From Tissierellia bacterium (GTDB taxonomy: Bacteria; Bacillota; Clostridia; Tissierellales; Peptoniphilaceae): a stretch of DNA of 53,634 nucleotides. The stretch is taken from the NCBI GenBank assembly GCA_030537815.1, contig JAUNVF010000007.1, forward strand, positions 1 through 53,634, written 5' to 3'. The translations under genes were made by a program, and so were the position numbers. Every line of letters starts with the position of its first letter. The stretch's first letter is position 1. The notes under the pieces are model-generated. The model searched no databases, was not told the origin of the DNA, and was given only the letters and a program-made list of their open reading frames with translations. Shown piece by piece: positions 29,490-37,938 of the stretch.

Positions 29490-30188
29490 ATGTCAACACC
29501 ACATAATAAAGCAAAAAAGGGAGATATTGCTGAGAAAATACTTTTGCCGGGAGATCCTCTTAGAGCAAAATTTATAGCCGATAATTTTTTAGAGGATGCG
29601 GTACAATTTAATGCGGTCAGAAATATGTTTGGATATACAGGTTATTATAAGGGTGAAAAAGTTTCTGTCATGGGGACCGGAATGGGAATCCCATCTATTG
29701 GAATTTACTCTTATGAATTGATAAATAAATATGGAGTTAAAAAACTAATAAGAGTCGGTTCATGTGGAGCATATGCGGAAGAATTAGATTTATTTGATAT
29801 AGTCATCGCACAAGCTGCTTCGACCGATTCCAATTATGCTTACCAATACGATCTACCGGGAATTTATTCGGCGACATCTTCTTGGAAACTCTTATCAAAG
29901 GCTGCCAGCATATGTGAAAAAAAGGGCCAGAGATATTATGTGGGCAATATTTTGACTTCGGATATTTTTTACGATAATAATCCTGAAATTTGGAAGAAAT
30001 GGGCTGCAATGGGAATCCTCGCAGTCGAGATGGAGAGTTATGCATTATTTTGCAATGCTGCGAAGGCAGGGGTCGATGCATTGACGATACTTACTGTGTC
30101 AGATTCATTAGTTCATCACAAGGAGACGACCACCGAGCAGAGGGAGAAGAGTTTCACGAAAATGATGGAGATAGCTCTTGAGATTTAA
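29490..30188 (+). CDS. deoD: Purine nucleoside phosphorylase (DeoD type)
   Basis: This 232-residue protein matches hexameric DeoD: MSTPHNKAKKGDIAEKILLPGDPLRAKFI, TGMGIPSIGIYSYEL for phosphate and ribose, VEMESYALF for the ribose hydroxyls, and VSDSLVHHKETT with the catalytic-type aspartate. It cleaves purine (deoxy)nucleosides with phosphate to the base and (deoxy)ribose-1-phosphate. It overlaps the next gene by 11 bp, which encodes the matching nucleoside-binding lipoprotein, so uptake and cleavage are linked. Confidence 0.95.
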   Translation: MSTPHNKAKKGDIAEKILLPGDPLRAKFIADNFLEDAVQFNAVRNMFGYTGYYKGEKVSVMGTGMGIPSIGIYSYELINKYGVKKLIRVGSCGAYAEELDLFDIVIAQAASTDSNYAYQYDLPGIYSATSSWKLLSKAASICEKKGQRYYVGNILTSDIFYDNNPEIWKKWAAMGILAVEMESYALFCNAAKAGVDALTILTVSDSLVHHKETTTEQREKSFTKMMEIALEI

Positions 30189-31308
30189 AAAGGATATAAT
30201 TGAGATAATAAAATTTACATCTGTCATAATTCTAATATCAATATTATTTTCGGCTTGCGCCAAAGATTTGGAACCAGTTCAAGAAGATAATGAAGTTTTG
30301 AGAATCGCACATCTCGTCAACGGTTTTCTCGGTGATAAATCTTTTCACGATTCTGCCGAGAGAGGATTTTCAAATTTAAAGCGGGAACTTGGAGATGGTT
30401 TTTATTACAAGACTGTCGAGATGACTAATGATACTACAAGACATTTGCCGACATTATACGAGTATGCCGAGTCGAGAGAATGGGATATTATAGTAGTCGG
30501 GACTTGGCAGATGGTCGATAATCTTATTGAGGTTGCAAATGAATATCCGGATCAAAAATTTATAATATATGATGATCAATTAAATTATGAAAATGGAGGA
30601 TTTAAAAATGTTTACTCCGTTAAATTCAAGCAAAATGAGGGTTCATTTTTAGCGGGATATCTGGCAGCAAAACTATCTGAGAAAGAGGATGATCCAAAGA
30701 TAGACCCGAATAATTGCAAGATAGGTTTTTTAGGTGGAATGTCGACTCCGGTAATAAATGATTTCCTAGTTGGATATATTGAAGGAGCTAAGTATGCTAA
30801 TCCGGAAGCGGAGGTAATAGTTTCTTATATAGGAGATTTTTTCGATGCTCCAAAGGGAAAGTCATTAGCCTTAGTTCAATATCTGAATTTAGGGGTGGAT
30901 ATAGGATTTAATGTAGCTTCGCTTGCAGGCATAGGACAAATAGATGCTGCTTATGAAGCTGATAAATATGCTATAGGAGTAGATTCAGATCAAGCTGAAC
31001 TTGTTGGAGAACCGAGGGCTTCCAATATACCAACATCGATGCTGAAAAATGTCGATAAAGCTATGGAGAGGGCAATTAAACTCCATATGAATGGCGAATT
31101 GAAATATGGAGATGTAGAAATTCTAGGATTAAAAGACGAAGCTGTGGGCCTTGTTAAAAATAGAAATTATGAGAAGATAGTACCTGAAGATATTAAAAAA
31201 AGTATCGACGAGGTGGAAGAAAAGTTGATATCAGGAGAAATAAAGGTAGGCACTGCTTTTGGCAAGACATCTCAAGAAATAGATGAGCTGATAGAATCAG
31301 CAAAATAA
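30178..31308 (+). CDS. BMP-family lipoprotein, nucleoside-binding component of ABC importer
   Basis: This 376-residue protein starts at TTG 30178 inside deoD with GGAG upstream. It has a lipoprotein signal, hydrophobic run then FSAC with Cys27 as lipid anchor. The mature part is of the BMP/PnrA type (IAHLVNGFLGDKSFHDSAERGF, then FIIYDDQLN, FKQNEGSFLAGYLAAKLS, IGFLGGMSTPV, AIGVDSDQAE). The family captures purine nucleosides outside the membrane for an ABC importer, here probably the ATPase and two permeases at 32929-36243. Confidence 0.92.
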   Translation: MRFKKDIIEIIKFTSVIILISILFSACAKDLEPVQEDNEVLRIAHLVNGFLGDKSFHDSAERGFSNLKRELGDGFYYKTVEMTNDTTRHLPTLYEYAESREWDIIVVGTWQMVDNLIEVANEYPDQKFIIYDDQLNYENGGFKNVYSVKFKQNEGSFLAGYLAAKLSEKEDDPKIDPNNCKIGFLGGMSTPVINDFLVGYIEGAKYANPEAEVIVSYIGDFFDAPKGKSLALVQYLNLGVDIGFNVASLAGIGQIDAAYEADKYAIGVDSDQAELVGEPRASNIPTSMLKNVDKAMERAIKLHMNGELKYGDVEILGLKDEAVGLVKNRNYEKIVPEDIKKSIDEVEEKLISGEIKVGTAFGKTSQEIDELIESAK

Positions 31309-31327
31309 AATATCAACTAAAGAAAAG

Positions 31328-31365
31328 GCTGTTTGAGATTTCCAATTAAAATCTCAAACAGCTTT
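31328..31365. terminator. Bidirectional terminator between converging genes
   Basis: GCTGTTTGAGATTT (31328-31341) pairs with AAATCTCAAACAGC (31349-31362), 14 perfect pairs. TTTATTT follows on the plus strand, and an A-rich flank lies on the other side, so it can serve both the lipoprotein gene and pncB. Confidence 0.85.
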
Positions 31366-31367
31366 AT

Positions 31368-32813
31368 TTATGAATTCTCTTCCAGCATCTTATCTTTTAT
31401 CGTCCAAAGATCTAGACTCAAGTCCACTATATATTTATGCGGAAATTCAAATCTCTTTACTTCATCCCACATTGAATCGACTTCTCTTTTGCAGAATGAT
31501 TTAATATCGTCGAGTTCTGGGAGGTCGTAAATCAGATTGCCTTTATCAAAAACTTTTACCATTAGTTTTTCAGAGTAGAAGTCATTGATCTTCTTTCTCT
31601 TCCATGTGTGTATGGGATGAAAGATTTCCAGTTCTTTGCTGTCATCTATCTCTTCGTCATGCAATGTTATAAGATCCGCCTCGGCTTTACCGGTATTTCT
31701 GTCGTATATCCTGTAGACATTTTTAAAACCCGGGGTTGTAATTTTTTCTATATTTTCACTAATCTTGATTTTTGGAATTATCTTTCCATCTTGTTCTATG
31801 GCTACTAATTTATAAACTCCTCCAAATACGGGGGAAGATTTAGATGTTATGAGCCTCTCTCCTACTCCAAATGCATCCAGCTCGGAGCCCTGCAATAGCA
31901 TATCCCTTATCTTATATTCGTCTAATGAACTGGAAGCGACTATCGGACAATCTTCATAGCCGGCCTCATCCAATAATTTTCTGGCATTTTTAGAAAGATA
32001 TGCTATATCGCCACTGTCTAGTCTTATTCCTTTTGGCCTTTTTCCCAATGGTTTTAATATCTCGTCAAATGTCTTAATTGCATTTGGAACTCCTGATTTC
32101 AATGTATTATAAGTATCTACGAGTAGTACACAGTCATTTGGAAAGACTCTCGCATATGCTTTAAAAGCTTCGATTTCGGTAGGGAATAGCTGCACCCATG
32201 AATGTGCCATCGTACCCAATGCGGGAACTCCGAAATCTCTATCGGCCATCGTATTTGCAGTTCCGACGACACCTCCGATATAAGCGGCTCTGGCTCCGTA
32301 ATTAGCAGCATCTGCTCCCTGAGCTCTCCTCGAGCCGAATTCCATAACAGTTCTTCCTTGTGATGCACGCACTATTCTATTTGCTTTAGTTGCTATGAGG
32401 CTTTGATGATTTATCAGCAGAAGTAGCATCGTCTCTATCATCTGAGCTTGCACTACAGGGCCTCTGACAATAACCATCGGCTCTCCGGGGAATACAACTC
32501 TTCCTTCCGGCATTGCCCAAATATCACAGCAAAATTCAAAATCTTCCAGAAATTTTATGAATTTTGAAGAAAAGATCGATTTCGTATTGAAATAATCTAT
32601 ATCTTCTTTTGTGAATTTTAGATTTTGTATATATTCAATCGCCTGTTCTAGGCCTGCAGCTATTGCAAATCCACCATTATCGGGAACGGTTCTAAAATAA
32701 AGTTCAAAATATGCTATGAGATCTTGCATATCGTTTTCCAGATAACCATTCGCCATCGTGAATTCGTAAAAATCAGCGAGCATGGTTAAATTTCTATCGT
32801 CTCTCCAGTTCAT
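31368..32813 (-). CDS. pncB: Nicotinate phosphoribosyltransferase
   Basis: This 481-residue enzyme turns nicotinate and PRPP (with ATP) into nicotinate mononucleotide in NAD salvage. It begins NWRDDRNLTMLADFYEFTMANGY, and has the family motifs MEFGSRRAQGADAANYGARAAYIGG and IRLDSGDIAYLSKNARKLLD. AAAAGGAGAG precedes the ATG. It is transcribed against the nucleoside transporter genes and separates the binding protein from its ATPase and permeases. Confidence 0.95.
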   Translation of the reverse strand: MNWRDDRNLTMLADFYEFTMANGYLENDMQDLIAYFELYFRTVPDNGGFAIAAGLEQAIEYIQNLKFTKEDIDYFNTKSIFSSKFIKFLEDFEFCCDIWAMPEGRVVFPGEPMVIVRGPVVQAQMIETMLLLLINHQSLIATKANRIVRASQGRTVMEFGSRRAQGADAANYGARAAYIGGVVGTANTMADRDFGVPALGTMAHSWVQLFPTEIEAFKAYARVFPNDCVLLVDTYNTLKSGVPNAIKTFDEILKPLGKRPKGIRLDSGDIAYLSKNARKLLDEAGYEDCPIVASSSLDEYKIRDMLLQGSELDAFGVGERLITSKSSPVFGGVYKLVAIEQDGKIIPKIKISENIEKITTPGFKNVYRIYDRNTGKAEADLITLHDEEIDDSKELEIFHPIHTWKRKKINDFYSEKLMVKVFDKGNLIYDLPELDDIKSFCKREVDSMWDEVKRFEFPHKYIVDLSLDLWTIKDKMLEENS

Positions 32814-32928
32814 TGCTCTCTCCTTTTAAAGATTAAATTATAAATTGATTATATCATATATTCAAAAGGATTATACCGGTAGACTATAAAATGGCAGTAT
32901 GGTATATTTATAAAAATAGGAGAATATA

Positions 32929-34374
32929 ATGAAAAGAGATAAGATTAAAATCGAAATGATCGGAATAAATAAGAGATACGGCGATGTCATTGCAAATAAA
33001 GATATTGATTTTAATTTGTACGAGGGAGAGATAAGGGCGATAATAGGAGAAAATGGAGCTGGAAAATCTACTCTTATGAGGATTCTTTCCGGAATGGAGA
33101 GGCCCGATTCCGGAGAAATAAGGATAGATGAAATTCAATTAAATTTAAATCAGTTTTCCGAATTTAAAAAAATAGCTTATTCAAAACAGGACTTTGAATT
33201 AATCGATGAATTTAAAGTTTATGAGAATATCGCCCTCGGATGTGAAAAGAAAAAGCTTTTCATATATGATAGAAAGAAGACGATAGATGAAGTCGAAGAG
33301 CTTATAGCTGATTATTCCTTTGATATATCGGCGAAATCAGATGCAATAGATCTCAGCATATCTCAAAGACAGATTGTCGCATTACTCAAATTTTTGTATT
33401 CCAAAAAAGAGATAATCATATTTGATGAGCCGGGTTCAATATTGGGAAATGAGGCCAATCATTTTTTTAAAATCCTTAAAAGCTTAGCAGATCTTGGTAA
33501 GACGATAATAATAATCACGCATAATTATAAAGAAATAGAGAAAATTGCAGACAGAGTATCGATCATGAGCAGAGGTGGTTTAAAGACATTCGACAATAAT
33601 CCGGAAGATCAGGTTTTAAGAGATTTATTGACAGAGGATTGCACAGATAAATTTAAAATGGAAAATTCAGAGTCTAAAAAAAGATTAAGCATTAAATTTA
33701 GAAATAAAATATTTGAAATTGGAAATGAAGTTCTTGGTATTGCTGAGATAGGTGGGAAATTTAGCGATTGCTTAATAGACTATATTTTAGGAATAAAAAA
33801 GTCGGATGATTTTGTAATTAAATTTGACGGGACAGACATTTCTAGGATTGATTCCTATGAGAGATTGAAATTTGGAATATCTTATATCCCAAAGGAGCGT
33901 ATGACAAGGGGGATTTCCAGAGGATTGACAGTAAGAGAAAATCTGATTAAACCAAATGGGAAATTTGAAGGCATTTTTTTAAATCAGTCAATAATTGATG
34001 AATACTGTGATAAACTAAAGGCGGAATTTAATATTGAATATGAAAGTCTAGATGAAGATATCTATAATTTATCGGGCGGAAATATTCAGAAAGTAATTAT
34101 AGCGAGAGAAATTTCAAATAATCCCAAATTAGTTATAGCAGATAATCCGACGAGAGGTCTCGATAAATTTTCTGCAATAAATTTTTTTGAAAGAGTCAAA
34201 GATATGAGAAAAAATACATCATTTATTTATATTAGCAGCAATCCTGATGAGCTGATTGGTATTTCTGATCGGATTGCAATTATATCATCGGGAATTTTGG
34301 TTGATATCGTTGAAAATAAGGGAATAAATGCAATGTATATTTTTGAGAAGATGATGAGAGGGCGAGATGGATAG
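32929..34374 (+). CDS. Nucleoside ABC importer, double ATPase subunit (YufO/NupA type)
   Basis: This 481-residue protein has two ABC ATPase halves. Half one has Walker A GENGAGKST (40-48) and Walker B IIIFDEP, but its signature reads LSISQRQ instead of LSGGQ-like. Half two has no intact Walker A (GIAEIGGKFSD), yet a good signature LSGGNIQK and ADNPTRGLD. A degenerate second Walker A is normal in this RbsA/YufO group; the weak first signature is less usual. It powers uptake through the two following permeases, with which it overlaps. AGGAG precedes the ATG. Confidence 0.88.
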   Translation: MKRDKIKIEMIGINKRYGDVIANKDIDFNLYEGEIRAIIGENGAGKSTLMRILSGMERPDSGEIRIDEIQLNLNQFSEFKKIAYSKQDFELIDEFKVYENIALGCEKKKLFIYDRKKTIDEVEELIADYSFDISAKSDAIDLSISQRQIVALLKFLYSKKEIIIFDEPGSILGNEANHFFKILKSLADLGKTIIIITHNYKEIEKIADRVSIMSRGGLKTFDNNPEDQVLRDLLTEDCTDKFKMENSESKKRLSIKFRNKIFEIGNEVLGIAEIGGKFSDCLIDYILGIKKSDDFVIKFDGTDISRIDSYERLKFGISYIPKERMTRGISRGLTVRENLIKPNGKFEGIFLNQSIIDEYCDKLKAEFNIEYESLDEDIYNLSGGNIQKVIIAREISNNPKLVIADNPTRGLDKFSAINFFERVKDMRKNTSFIYISSNPDELIGISDRIAIISSGILVDIVENKGINAMYIFEKMMRGRDG

Positions 34375-35386
34375 AATTAGCATTAAAAATTATTTAAAAA
34401 TGATCGCTTTAATCTTCTTGATCATATTTCTATTTTGTTTTTTTACAGATGAAAACTATATTTCATTTATTTATTTTATCAAAGGACCTTTAATGAATGT
34501 CGGGGCAATTAAAGAGCTGCTTTTGATATTCACTCCACTTTGTATAATGGGACTTTCGCTGACCATGATATTTACGGTGGGAAAAATTAATTTGTCTTCA
34601 GAACCCTCATTTATTATAGGTGGGCTTGTGGCGGCTATAATATCTGTAAAATTCAAGTTGAATCCCATAATACACCCTCTTGTTGCGATATTGTCAGCGG
34701 TTATTGCAGGGGCATTTGTAACGGGACTTTGTGCATATTTTGATGAAAAGCTTGGTCTCAATATAATAATTACTTCGCTTATGATAAATTATATAGTTTT
34801 TTACATTTCTAGATATTATCTCTTATATTATTTTAGAGACGGTGCTGAAACTATGGTGGCTTCAGGATTGATAAGGGAGAGCGCTAGACTGCCTAGATTT
34901 TATTTTGGCGATATTTCTGTCTTAATAGCCATATTATCTGCTTTTGCTTTGTATATATTCTTGAGAAAGACAAATTTGGGTTTTAAAATAAGATTGACGG
35001 GAGCAAATCCCGTATATGCAAAATACAAGGGAATAGAAATAGGATATCATTCTCTGTTGGCACAATGTATTGCCGGAGCTTTATCGGGTTTATCTGGAGC
35101 TTTATATTTATTGTCAGGATTTAAGAGATTCGATTGGCTCAATATGCCGGGATTTGGATTAGATGCTGTTTTGATTTCCCTTCTAGCCGGACTCAACCCA
35201 GCCTATATGCCTATATCCGCTTTTGTAATAGCATATATAAGAACGGGTAGCAATATATTGTCGAGAAATTCAAATATGAGTCCCGATATCGCTTTGGTAA
35301 TGGAAGCCATTTTGATTATTTTTATATTGAGAATCAATTTAAAGAGCGGGAAAATTCCAAGCATAGATATGAGGAATAAGATATGA
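34367..35386 (+). CDS. Nucleoside ABC importer permease 1 (BPD_transp_2 family)
   Basis: This 339-residue polytopic membrane protein has about ten helices and the family's conserved cytoplasmic loop, LRKTNLGFKIRLTGANPVYAKYKGI, followed by SGALYLLSGFKRF. Its start lies inside the ATPase gene and its stop overlaps the second permease, so all three are co-translated. It forms half of the membrane pore for purine nucleosides. Confidence 0.9.
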   Translation: MDRISIKNYLKMIALIFLIIFLFCFFTDENYISFIYFIKGPLMNVGAIKELLLIFTPLCIMGLSLTMIFTVGKINLSSEPSFIIGGLVAAIISVKFKLNPIIHPLVAILSAVIAGAFVTGLCAYFDEKLGLNIIITSLMINYIVFYISRYYLLYYFRDGAETMVASGLIRESARLPRFYFGDISVLIAILSAFALYIFLRKTNLGFKIRLTGANPVYAKYKGIEIGYHSLLAQCIAGALSGLSGALYLLSGFKRFDWLNMPGFGLDAVLISLLAGLNPAYMPISAFVIAYIRTGSNILSRNSNMSPDIALVMEAILIIFILRINLKSGKIPSIDMRNKI

Positions 35387-36243
35387 ATATAAATATAATC
35401 GAGTTTTTAAAGTCCTGTATGATTCTTCAAACTCCGATAATTTTTGCTGCACTCTCTTCGAATATATCTTCAAAGGCAGGTTATTTTAATATAGGAATAG
35501 AAGGAATCATGACTCTCTCTGCATTTTTTGCAGCATATTTCAGCCATTATTTTCAAAATCCCTATATCGCTCTATTTATTGTGATTTTAATTGCGATTTT
35601 GCAGGCTTATATACTGGCTTTCCTAAAATGCAAATGGGGATTGAACTCGATTTTATCGGGGATTGCATATAATTTTTTTGCATTTGGTCTAAGTTCCACA
35701 CTTTTGTATCTTACAGGAAATAAGGGTATCTCGACATCATTTAAAACTTTTAAAATACCAGATTGGAATTTTGGAATTCTTAAAATCAATCCCATGGTCC
35801 TATTAGCTATTATATCAATATTTTTAATTTATTTATTAAATGAAAAGACCGTCTTGGGAATAAGGATAAAATCAGTGGGATATGATGAAGAATTCGTTAA
35901 GATAAGCGGAATGGACCCCGATATATATATTTATTATGCCCTCACTATTTCATCTATAATGGCTGCAATAGGAGGTGCCTTTATGAGCTTGGTCTATATA
36001 CCATGGTTTTCGAGGGATATGATAGCGGGCAGGGGCTTTATAGGGCTTGCAGCAGATGCGATAGGAGGGGGATCTGCATTGAGAGCCGGTTTGGTATCTA
36101 TTTTATTTGGAATTATCTTTGGACTATCAAATCTCCAGCCTGAAATAAGTATTAAGCCCGAAATTTTTCAAATGCTCCCTTATTTGTCTGTCATGGTTTT
36201 TTTCTTAATTAAGAAATTAATTGATGAATTAGGAAAGAGATAA
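35383..36243 (+). CDS. Nucleoside ABC importer permease 2 (BPD_transp_2 family)
   Basis: This 286-residue permease has the typical start AALSSNISSKAGYFNIGIEGIMT, the coupling loop NEKTVLGIRIKSVGYDEEFVKISGMD and the end motif GFIGLAADAIGG. GAGGAA lies before the ATG, which overlaps the preceding stop. It is the second half of the nucleoside pore. The paired permeases, the double ATPase and the upstream BMP lipoprotein make a complete importer. Confidence 0.9.
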   Translation: MNINIIEFLKSCMILQTPIIFAALSSNISSKAGYFNIGIEGIMTLSAFFAAYFSHYFQNPYIALFIVILIAILQAYILAFLKCKWGLNSILSGIAYNFFAFGLSSTLLYLTGNKGISTSFKTFKIPDWNFGILKINPMVLLAIISIFLIYLLNEKTVLGIRIKSVGYDEEFVKISGMDPDIYIYYALTISSIMAAIGGAFMSLVYIPWFSRDMIAGRGFIGLAADAIGGGSALRAGLVSILFGIIFGLSNLQPEISIKPEIFQMLPYLSVMVFFLIKKLIDELGKR

Positions 36244-36342: not shown

Positions 36343-37938
36343 TTGAATACTAAATATATTTTTGTTACAGGTGGAGTAGTTTCATCTTTAGGAAAGGGAA
36401 TAACGGCTGCATCTTTGGGAAGGCTTTTGAAAAATAGAGGTTTAAAAGTCTTATTGCAAAAATTTGATCCATATTTAAATGTAGACCCGGGTAATATGAG
36501 TCCACTTCAGCATGGAGAGGTTTTTGTCACCGATGACGGCGCAGAAACGGATCTCGATATAGGTCATTACGAGAGATTCGTAGATGTCAGATTAAACAGA
36601 CATTCCGACATAACTACCGGGATGGTCTATAGATCTGTATTGAATAAGGAAAGAGATGGATTTTTTGAGGGCGGAACAGTACAGGTGATTCCGCATATCA
36701 CTAATGAGATAAAAGATAGAGTTAGAAAGGTGGCCAGTGAGCAAGAAGTAGATATCGTAATTACTGAAATTGGCGGGACTGTTGGAGATATAGAAGGGCT
36801 TCCGTTTTTAGAAGCTATAAGACAAATCAAAAAGGATCTCGGTAGGGAAAATGTGATGTATATCCATGTTACTCTTCTTCCTTATCTGACTAAATCTGAA
36901 GAGCTTAAGACCAAACCGACTCAACATAGTGTAAAAGAATTGAGGAGTATCGGTATTCAACCCGACCTTTTGATTATAAGAACCGAACATGAGATAGACG
37001 AGGCGTCAAAGGAAAAGATAGCTTTGTTTTGCGATCTTGAGCCTGAAGAAGTCATAGAAAACAATGATGCCGACTCGATATATGAAATACCTCTTATGTT
37101 GGAAAAGCAGGGGCTTTCAGATCTCGTAGTAAACCATCTCGGGATAGATGCGCCTCCTGTTGAATTGGCTGAGTGGAAGAAATTAGTCGAGAGGATTAAG
37201 CAAATAAATGACGAAGTCAAAATAAGCATGGTCGTAAAGTATATAGACTTAAAAGACGCTTATATTTCTCTTGTCGAAGCGCTTAAACATTCAGGTATAG
37301 CAAATGATGTAAATATAGATTTTAATTGGATAGATGCTGAAATGATAGAGGAAGATAATTATGAAGAAATCCTTGACGGTTCAGATGCCGTACTAATACC
37401 TGCTGGCTTTGGAGATAGAGGTCTGAAAGGAATGATACTAGCTTCAAAGTATTCTAGAGAAAAGGGGCTTCCATTTTTGGGAATAAGCATGGGAATGCAT
37501 GCAGCCATACTCGATATAATGAGGAATAAGGCGGGTATGGAAATCACATCAGAAAAATGTATTTCTTCCGGATATGATGATGTGATTCACGCACCCAGAG
37601 AAGACAACGAAAAAGACGACAGAAGACTTGGTTTAATGCCATGTAAAACAATGGATGGCAGCAAGGCGAGAGAAATCTATGGAAATGAATTAATCTACGA
37701 GAGACATAGAAATAAATATGAATTTAATTTAAAGTATTTAGATAAATTAGTTGAAAATGGAGCTATTGCATCCGGTTTCACTCCTGATGAAAAATATCTG
37801 CAGATATTTGAATTAAAAGATCACGACTGGTTTATGGGAGTACAATTCCATCCGGAATTTGTGTCTAGACCTGATAAGCCACATCCTTTGATAACGGATT
37901 TTGTTTTGAAAGCCAAAAAATTTAAAGAAAATAAATAG
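36343..37938 (+). CDS. pyrG: CTP synthase with a substituted glutaminase nucleophile
   Basis: This 531-residue protein is full-length PyrG, starting at TTG 36343 with AGGAGG six bases before. The synthetase domain is well kept: [70 protein letters not shown]. It makes CTP from UTP, ATP and ammonia. The C-terminal glutaminase domain usually supplies ammonia through a Cys in GICLGMQ; here that segment is GISMGMH, with Ser382 (codon AGC). The oxyanion-loop motif PGGFG.RG.EGK reads [12 protein letters not shown]. His503 and Glu505 of the triad remain (VQFHPEF). The synthetase should work with free ammonia; glutamine use is doubtful. Confidence 0.95.

Follow-up and report, generated by a model that had tools for sequence, protein, structure and literature searches.

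A full-length CTP synthase with serine at the glutaminase nucleophile position and a predicted recurrent switch to free ammonia in its bacterial order

The direct use of free ammonia has traditionally been regarded as the mark of glutamine synthetase, glutamine being the donor for the other ATP-dependent amidotransferases, and the single-domain NadE represents a bacterial exception to this rule (PMC3376133). In Table 1 of that study, the CTP synthase PyrG (800 genomes) and the GMP synthetase GuaA (730 genomes) were 100% fused to a glutaminase domain, and NadE was given as the family with glutaminase-free members. Since the table counts domain arrangements, a dead glutaminase domain would pass unseen in it, whereas a domain-less GuaA would not.

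Ordinary CTP synthases accept NH3, and variants altered on the glutaminase side retain NH3-dependent activity; in Escherichia coli, G352P showed almost full NH3-dependent and no glutamine-dependent activity, and R429A showed unchanged NH3-dependent activity with a 15-fold lower glutamine-dependent kcat (PMC9138612). The cleft that binds GTP is the presumed entry of exogenous NH3, with GTP acting as a plug (PMC9138612; PMC8325340). The roles of the residues in the L13 wing, or GTP loop, were described in the former study, and those of Lys18, Lys40, Asp72, Glu140, and the tunnel gate in the latter.

In the present study, we analyzed 53,634 nucleotides of DNA (contig JAUNVF010000007.1 of assembly GCA_030537815.1; hereafter, the window) from a Tissierellia bacterium of the family Peptoniphilaceae in the order Tissierellales. 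Its pyrG gene is predicted to encode a working CTP synthase that does not hydrolyze glutamine and aminates UTP with free ammonia, as part of a recurrent loss of glutaminase function; we assign this reading a probability of approximately 0.83.

The pyrG gene and the state of its two domains

The product of pyrG (Table 1) scored 713.5 bits with TIGR00337, for which the cut-off is 462.75, matched NF003792 above its cut-off, and carries fused CTP_synth_N (PF06418, 424.3 bits) and class-I GATase (PF00117, 90.5 bits) domains. By family, it is a CTP synthase; judged from its sequence, it fails at the defining nucleophile of glutamine-hydrolyzing amidotransferases. Codon 382 is AGC (Ser) and aligns with the nucleophile Cys379 of E. 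coli, and this codon reading and alignment bore out the original prediction of GISMGMH in place of GICLGMQ. The predicted alteration of the oxyanion loop was also found (PAGFGDRG versus PGGFGYRG in E. coli), as was the predicted retention of the other two members of the Cys-His-Glu triad, His503 and Glu505, so that the triad is incomplete at the nucleophile. Gly351, which we take to be the oxyanion residue, is replaced by Ala; among the presumed glutamine contacts, Gln383 is replaced by His and Glu403 is lost, the alignment at 403 being loose (no nearby Glu in G001 and G029, and a Glu two residues off in the window protein and G012).

Table 1. Features of the window that bear on pyrG (residue equivalents refer to E. 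coli CTP synthase)
Feature	Positions	Strand	Remark	Basis
DeoD-type phosphorylase gene	29490..30188	+	upstream of pyrG; nucleoside salvage	
Bmp/PnrA binding protein gene	30178..31308	+	upstream of pyrG	
Nicotinate phosphoribosyltransferase gene	31368..32813	-	upstream of pyrG	
ABC ATPase gene	32929..34374	+	upstream of pyrG	
Two permease genes	34367..36243	+	upstream of pyrG	
pyrG, CTP synthase	36343..37938	+	531 aa, full length, TTG start	open reading frame
Asn51	36493..36495	+	Thr51 in E. coli; GTP cleft	alignment
Tunnel gate Pro54, His57, Val60	36502..36522	+	all retained	alignment
L4 loop DGFFE	36655..36669	+	RGDYL in E. coli	alignment
Oxyanion-hole motif PAGFG	37399..37413	+	canonical PGGFG; Gly351 to Ala	alignment
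Nucleophile motif GISMGMH	37480..37500	+	canonical GICLGMQ; His386 for Gln383	
Ser382, codon AGC	37486..37488	+	Cys379 in E. coli	alignment
Shortened L13 wing (GTP loop)	37594..37626	+	Gly436, Gly437, Thr438 columns deleted; Arg440 kept	alignment
Asn-Lys for His469-Arg470	37711..37716	+	RHRNKYE versus RHRHRYE	alignment
Triad His503 and Glu505	37849..37857	+	retained; His515, Glu517 in E. coli	alignment

The serine is common to four genomes of three genera (hereafter, the window clade): the window genome (G000), its sister genome (G001), a Tissierellia MAG (G029, JAUNUQ010000003.1), and a Gallicola MAG (G012, JAAZME010000251.1), Gallicola being placed in Peptoniphilaceae, Tissierellales, by the NCBI taxonomy. 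The PyrG proteins of the last three are 85, 77, and 61% identical to the window protein, respectively. The GISMGMH and PAGFG motifs recur in G029 and G012, and the triad His is also replaced, by Gln, in the latter. The codon is AGC, one base from TGC, in three of the genomes and TCT in G012; because AGC and TCT are not interconvertible by a single base change, the site changed more than once or drifted. A comparison with sister species had been suggested to see whether Ser is fixed, and since G001, G029, and G012 share the serine, a sequencing error at codon 382 was ruled out. The window genome is a 1.9-Mb draft in 68 contigs (84.6% complete), and G001 is one 2.51-Mb contig (97% complete); each has a single PyrG match, and the search for a second pyrG, also suggested, found none in either genome.

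Nucleoside-salvage and uptake genes (29490-36243) lie directly upstream of pyrG in the window, and in G001, a single region upstream of pyrG was matched by both permeases when used as queries. In the window's family, PF06418 had no match in 52 of the 130 genomes, among them near-complete ones assigned to genus g24; these genomes presumably rely on cytidine salvage, and pyrG may be dispensable in this family. Most of the genomes compared are drafts, and the comparison is deep for a single order but extends little beyond it.

We aligned 248 distinct PyrG sequences with the E. coli protein, 227 of which have Cys at the nucleophile site, and regarded columns conserved in at least 95% of these Cys-type sequences as near-invariant. 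Changes present in three or more of the four window-clade members affected 15 of the 66 near-invariant columns of the glutaminase half versus 3 of the 118 columns of the synthase half, and the window protein alone had 19 and 3 changes, respectively; the means in the 227 Cys-type proteins were 0.80 (maximum 12) and 0.89 (maximum 32). The changes shared by the clade affect Gly351, Gln383, Glu403, His469, Arg470 (kept in G012), and wing columns 436-438, which are deleted. The claim of a well-kept synthetase domain was substantiated by the 3 of 118 columns and an intact active site and gate. Lys18, Lys40, Asp72, Glu140, Lys187, and Lys223 were kept in all 20 tabulated non-Cys sequences, as were the gate residues Pro54, His57, and Val60; the degenerate second copy of G013, which lacks Val60, was left out of this table. 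We take Lys187 and Lys223 to be conserved active-site residues of the synthase.

The divergence of the glutaminase domain was also compared with that expected from the synthase domain in 101 order-type sequences (86 Cys and 15 non-Cys), a set from which two partial sequences and the principal lineage of PyrG in the window's family were excluded. The glutaminase domain of the window protein lay 4.4 standard deviations above expectation, with the 86 Cys tips reaching at most 1.78. Of the 15 non-Cys tips, six (G218, G229, G230, G231, G244, and G182) showed no excess and fell within the Cys range, and only 2 of the 66 glutaminase columns were changed in G027; the Cys losses in these genomes look recent. 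Regarding selection, dN/dS was 0.02-0.04 for the synthase domain in three non-Cys pairs, and 0.08 and 0.14 for the glutaminase domain in the two non-Cys pairs with unsaturated dS, compared with 0.02-0.09 in Cys pairs. Purifying selection on the dead domain in these two measurable pairs points to a structural role. The ratio was saturated for the window pairs, and dN between the window and G001 was 0.044 in the synthase half and 0.178 in the glutaminase half.

Recurrent loss of the nucleophile in the order

The window PyrG was matched in 185 genomes of the order, and the nucleophile position was readable in 175; ten genomes were left out (G081, G108, G110, and G120, whose matches were weak or partial, as well as G186, G188, G196, G208, G224, and G227), and the second copy of G013 was excluded from the genome counts. 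Cys379 was absent in 19 of the 175 genomes; these 19 belong to four family codes and have Ser, Gly, Ala, or Gln at the site, and genomes with Ser also include G218, G240, G241, and G244. In a phylogeny built only from the synthase domain, at least seven changes of the nucleophile state were counted. The window clade falls in a group of nine non-Cys tips (SH-aLRT 76) that also contains G034 and non-Cys members of family f4, and is separate from the 73-tip group that holds most PyrG proteins of its own family. Among 74 distinct sequences not identical to those of the order genomes, which were chosen by similarity to the window protein and do not represent a survey, L096 from an Oscillospiraceae MAG (Gly) was the sole non-Cys sequence. 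The window protein had been called remarkable as a single gene; its rarity stands (21 of the 248 distinct sequences are non-Cys), while its status as a one-gene oddity does not, given several losses in the order and similar losses in GuaA and CarA.

Two genomes have additional PyrG sequences. G013 encodes a second, strongly degenerate PyrG (L211, contig C51; GIASGQH, and QPQ for HPE) beside a Cys-type copy. G181 has a Cys-bearing C-terminal PyrG fragment (L311, contig C150) and another PyrG with Gly; this fragment represents contamination or a second gene, and the status of G181 is uncertain.

In the window genome, PF00117 matched PyrG and two C26-like proteins and nothing else. The latter (L125 and L134, contig C20) are encoded in tandem, one with Cys (GICRGLQ) and the other with Arg, and with HLD for HPE. 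Two neighboring PF00117-matching frames of 229-276 aa were found in each of G000, G001, G029, G012, and G027; we take these frames to be C26-like, a name based on motif and length, and loci L310 and L126 were excluded from this reading.

GMP synthetase (PF00958) was matched in 234 of 249 order genomes, with no match in the window genome. Of 73 GuaA loci, all but L381, which had too short a frame, were read, and 29 of these 72 proteins had lost the nucleophile or the domain, a fraction that is not a prevalence because the sample was partly picked for odd frame lengths. Forty-three were of full length with Cys, 12 were of full length without it (Gly in 10, Asn, and Glu), and the glutaminase domain was truncated in 8 and absent in 9. 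Examples of GuaA with Gly, Asn, or Glu for Cys, with a truncated domain, or with no domain (316-330 aa) include L374 (G034), L312 (G218), L379 (G126), L376 (G244), and L120 (G041). GuaA was present in 17 of the 19 genomes with non-Cys PyrG (absent in G000 and G027), and none of those read in four such genomes (G034, G126, G218, and G244) was intact. Besides PyrG, no GuaA-size PF00117 frame was found in G001, G029, G012, G127, G229, G230, G231, G233, G240, G241, or G221; since PF00117 detects even Cys-less GuaA frames (G218 and G126), GuaA in these eleven genomes probably lacks the glutaminase domain. In genomes with Cys-type PyrG, GuaA was intact in 38 and not intact in 20 of the 58 read, and the presence of both states suggests that GuaA was disarmed first.

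The small subunit of carbamoyl-phosphate synthase (PF00988) was matched in 55 of 249 genomes, with no match in the window genome. The nucleophile Cys was missing in 15 of the 50 CarA genes read out of 51 (L367 was too short), and Gly occupied the site in each of the 12 genes that came from the window's family, in which 18 genomes have CarA. Cys-less loci include L132 (G034), L373 (G245), and L429-L433. PF00310 gave weak matches in 2 of 20 genomes and was uninformative on Ntn-type amidotransferases. We read nucleotide synthesis in this order as showing a recurrent replacement of glutamine by ammonia. On balance, we lean toward the broader proposal that this order of anaerobes repeatedly converted CTP synthase, GMP synthetase, and carbamoyl-phosphate synthetase to ammonia by inactivating or discarding the glutaminase, and that the GTP plug was dismantled in the window clade to leave an open ammonia port.

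Glutamine synthetase (PF00120) had a match in 148 of the 249 genomes of the order and in each of 14 controls, and a profile search found no match in G000, G001, G029, or G012. A match was lacking in 17 of the 19 non-Cys genomes versus 44 of the 156 Cys genomes (Fisher 2.9e-7, kinship ignored). An exact prediction of Cys loss from the loss of glutamine synthetase fails on the same counts, with 44 Cys genomes lacking the enzyme and two non-Cys genomes (G181 and G182) having it. An independent-pairs test showed no signal (median p = 1; four usable pairs, giving little power). Branches that lack glutamine synthetase account for 0.39 of the tree length and carry six of the seven losses (binomial 0.017); this event count, read off the tree, is rough and only indicative. 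The link with glutamine synthetase is not supported once kinship is considered. In 43 of the 54 family genomes with both genes, glutamine synthetase is encoded on the strand of pyrG and no more than 2.5 kb from it (for example, G003:C1, G022:C2, and G148:C2).

Proposed mechanism and alternative explanations

At the GTP site, the window clade shows changes at Thr51, wing residues 436-438, and Arg470 (the last kept in G012). Since Glu68, Arg356, Gly360, Arg440, and Arg468 are kept, GTP may still bind. The L4 residues at positions 105, 107, and 109 are not those of E. coli, although these positions also vary among Cys-type enzymes. Given the loss of residues at the glutamine site and in the GTP wing and the retention of the gate, the use of free ammonia through an unplugged cleft is the simplest interpretation, and we infer that ammonia is the substrate. 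UTP would be phosphorylated in the conserved synthase domain, and NH3, which would be plentiful in the cytoplasm of a bacterium that ferments amino acids, would enter the cleft between the two domains, which is plugged by GTP in ordinary enzymes and would be open to NH3 here, with a possible loss of regulation by GTP. NH3 would then pass the conserved Pro54/His57/Val60 gate, and the dead glutaminase domain may be retained for its structural contribution to the enzyme and to the tunnel mouth. Amino-acid fermentation, the likely source of this ammonia, has been stated for the related genus Peptoniphilus (PMC3813181) and is assumed by analogy for the window bacterium.

The retained triad His and Glu and most of the glutaminase domain in the window protein, together with serine at the same site in G218, G240, G241, and G244, would also fit an adapted Ser-type amidotransferase in which serine serves as a substitute nucleophile and slow glutamine hydrolysis persists. 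We consider this quite unlikely because related non-Cys enzymes have Gly, Ala, or Gln at the position, the window clade has lost oxyanion Gly351, Gln383, Glu403, and wing residues 436-438, the triad His has gone as well in G012, and human CPS1, with Cys replaced by Ser, is unable to use glutamine (PMC4655335). The proviso in the original prediction that serine might keep weak activity looks unlikely in view of the same Gly, Ala, and Gln residues. Its central claim, a full-length, glutaminase-dead PyrG that would make CTP only from ammonia, is supported by conservation across the clade, the joint loss of glutamine- and GTP-site residues, the kept synthase half and gate, and the single pyrG. Alternatively, pyrG may be a decaying relic on its way out, with CTP coming from salvage, as might be expected from the missing PyrG match in 52 of 130 family genomes, the nucleoside-uptake and salvage genes next to pyrG, and the degenerate extra copy beside the Cys-type one in G013. 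However, pyrG has no in-frame stop in any of the four genomes of the window clade, the window protein keeps 115 of the 118 near-invariant synthase columns, and synthase dN between the window and G001 is low next to that of the glutaminase half, which makes decay unlikely.

Glutamine-derived ammonia could also be supplied in trans by a class-I glutaminase-like protein, such as those encoded by the tandem C26-like genes, and the paired PF00117 frames in G000, G001, G029, G012, and G027 are in keeping with such a supply. C26-like proteins also occur in G034 and G230, and frames of similar length in the Cys-type genomes G228, G245, and G028, so that they are not specific; moreover, they are encoded on other contigs or far from pyrG, and one of the pair in the window genome itself lacks Cys. 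We regard this supply as very improbable. From a draft at the stated completeness, one might suspect an error of assembly or binning, or a second pyrG of the canonical type in sequence absent from the draft, but this has a negligible probability because the same serine is present in G029, G012, and the nearly complete single contig of G001 with its one pyrG match.

Comparison with described enzymes

No report of natural Cys-less CTP synthases was found in the titles and abstract openings listed by searches of open-access literature. Natural full-length enzymes with a dead glutaminase would separate the two halves of a well-studied channeling enzyme, and may be used to test which role the glutaminase domain plays besides hydrolysis and how external ammonia enters. 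If the order-wide pattern holds, it would represent a repeated metabolic switch. These proteins also mark a limit of annotation: TIGR00337 would label the window PyrG as a glutamine-hydrolyzing CTP synthase, and NF000848 would label the Cys-less GuaA L120 as a glutamine-hydrolyzing GMP synthase, with TIGR00888, the N-terminal GuaA model, falling below its cut-off on L120.

The window protein resembles E. coli PyrG (1S1M; TIGR00337) in its domain order, length class, synthase active site, and tunnel gate, and the nearest Cys-type PyrG proteins are 60-64% identical to it. Unlike the E. coli enzyme, it has lost Cys, Gly351, Gln383, Glu403, and wing residues 436-438, and is not expected to use glutamine. 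The E. coli variants G352P and R429A are similar in that glutamine-dependent activity was abolished or reduced with NH3-dependent activity kept (PMC9138612); they are single laboratory changes, whereas the window clade has a natural and conserved set of changes.

Among other amidotransferases, human CPS1 also carries Ser for Cys in a retained class-I glutaminase-like domain and is an ammonia-only enzyme (PMC4655335). CPS1 is a different synthetase in animals, whereas the present case concerns a bacterial CTP synthase and several losses in one order. The single-domain NadE is likewise a bacterial ATP-dependent amidotransferase that uses free ammonia in vivo (PMC3376133). In contrast to NadE, which has no glutaminase domain, a state thought to be ancestral in that study, the window PyrG has the domain, which appears to be secondarily dead.
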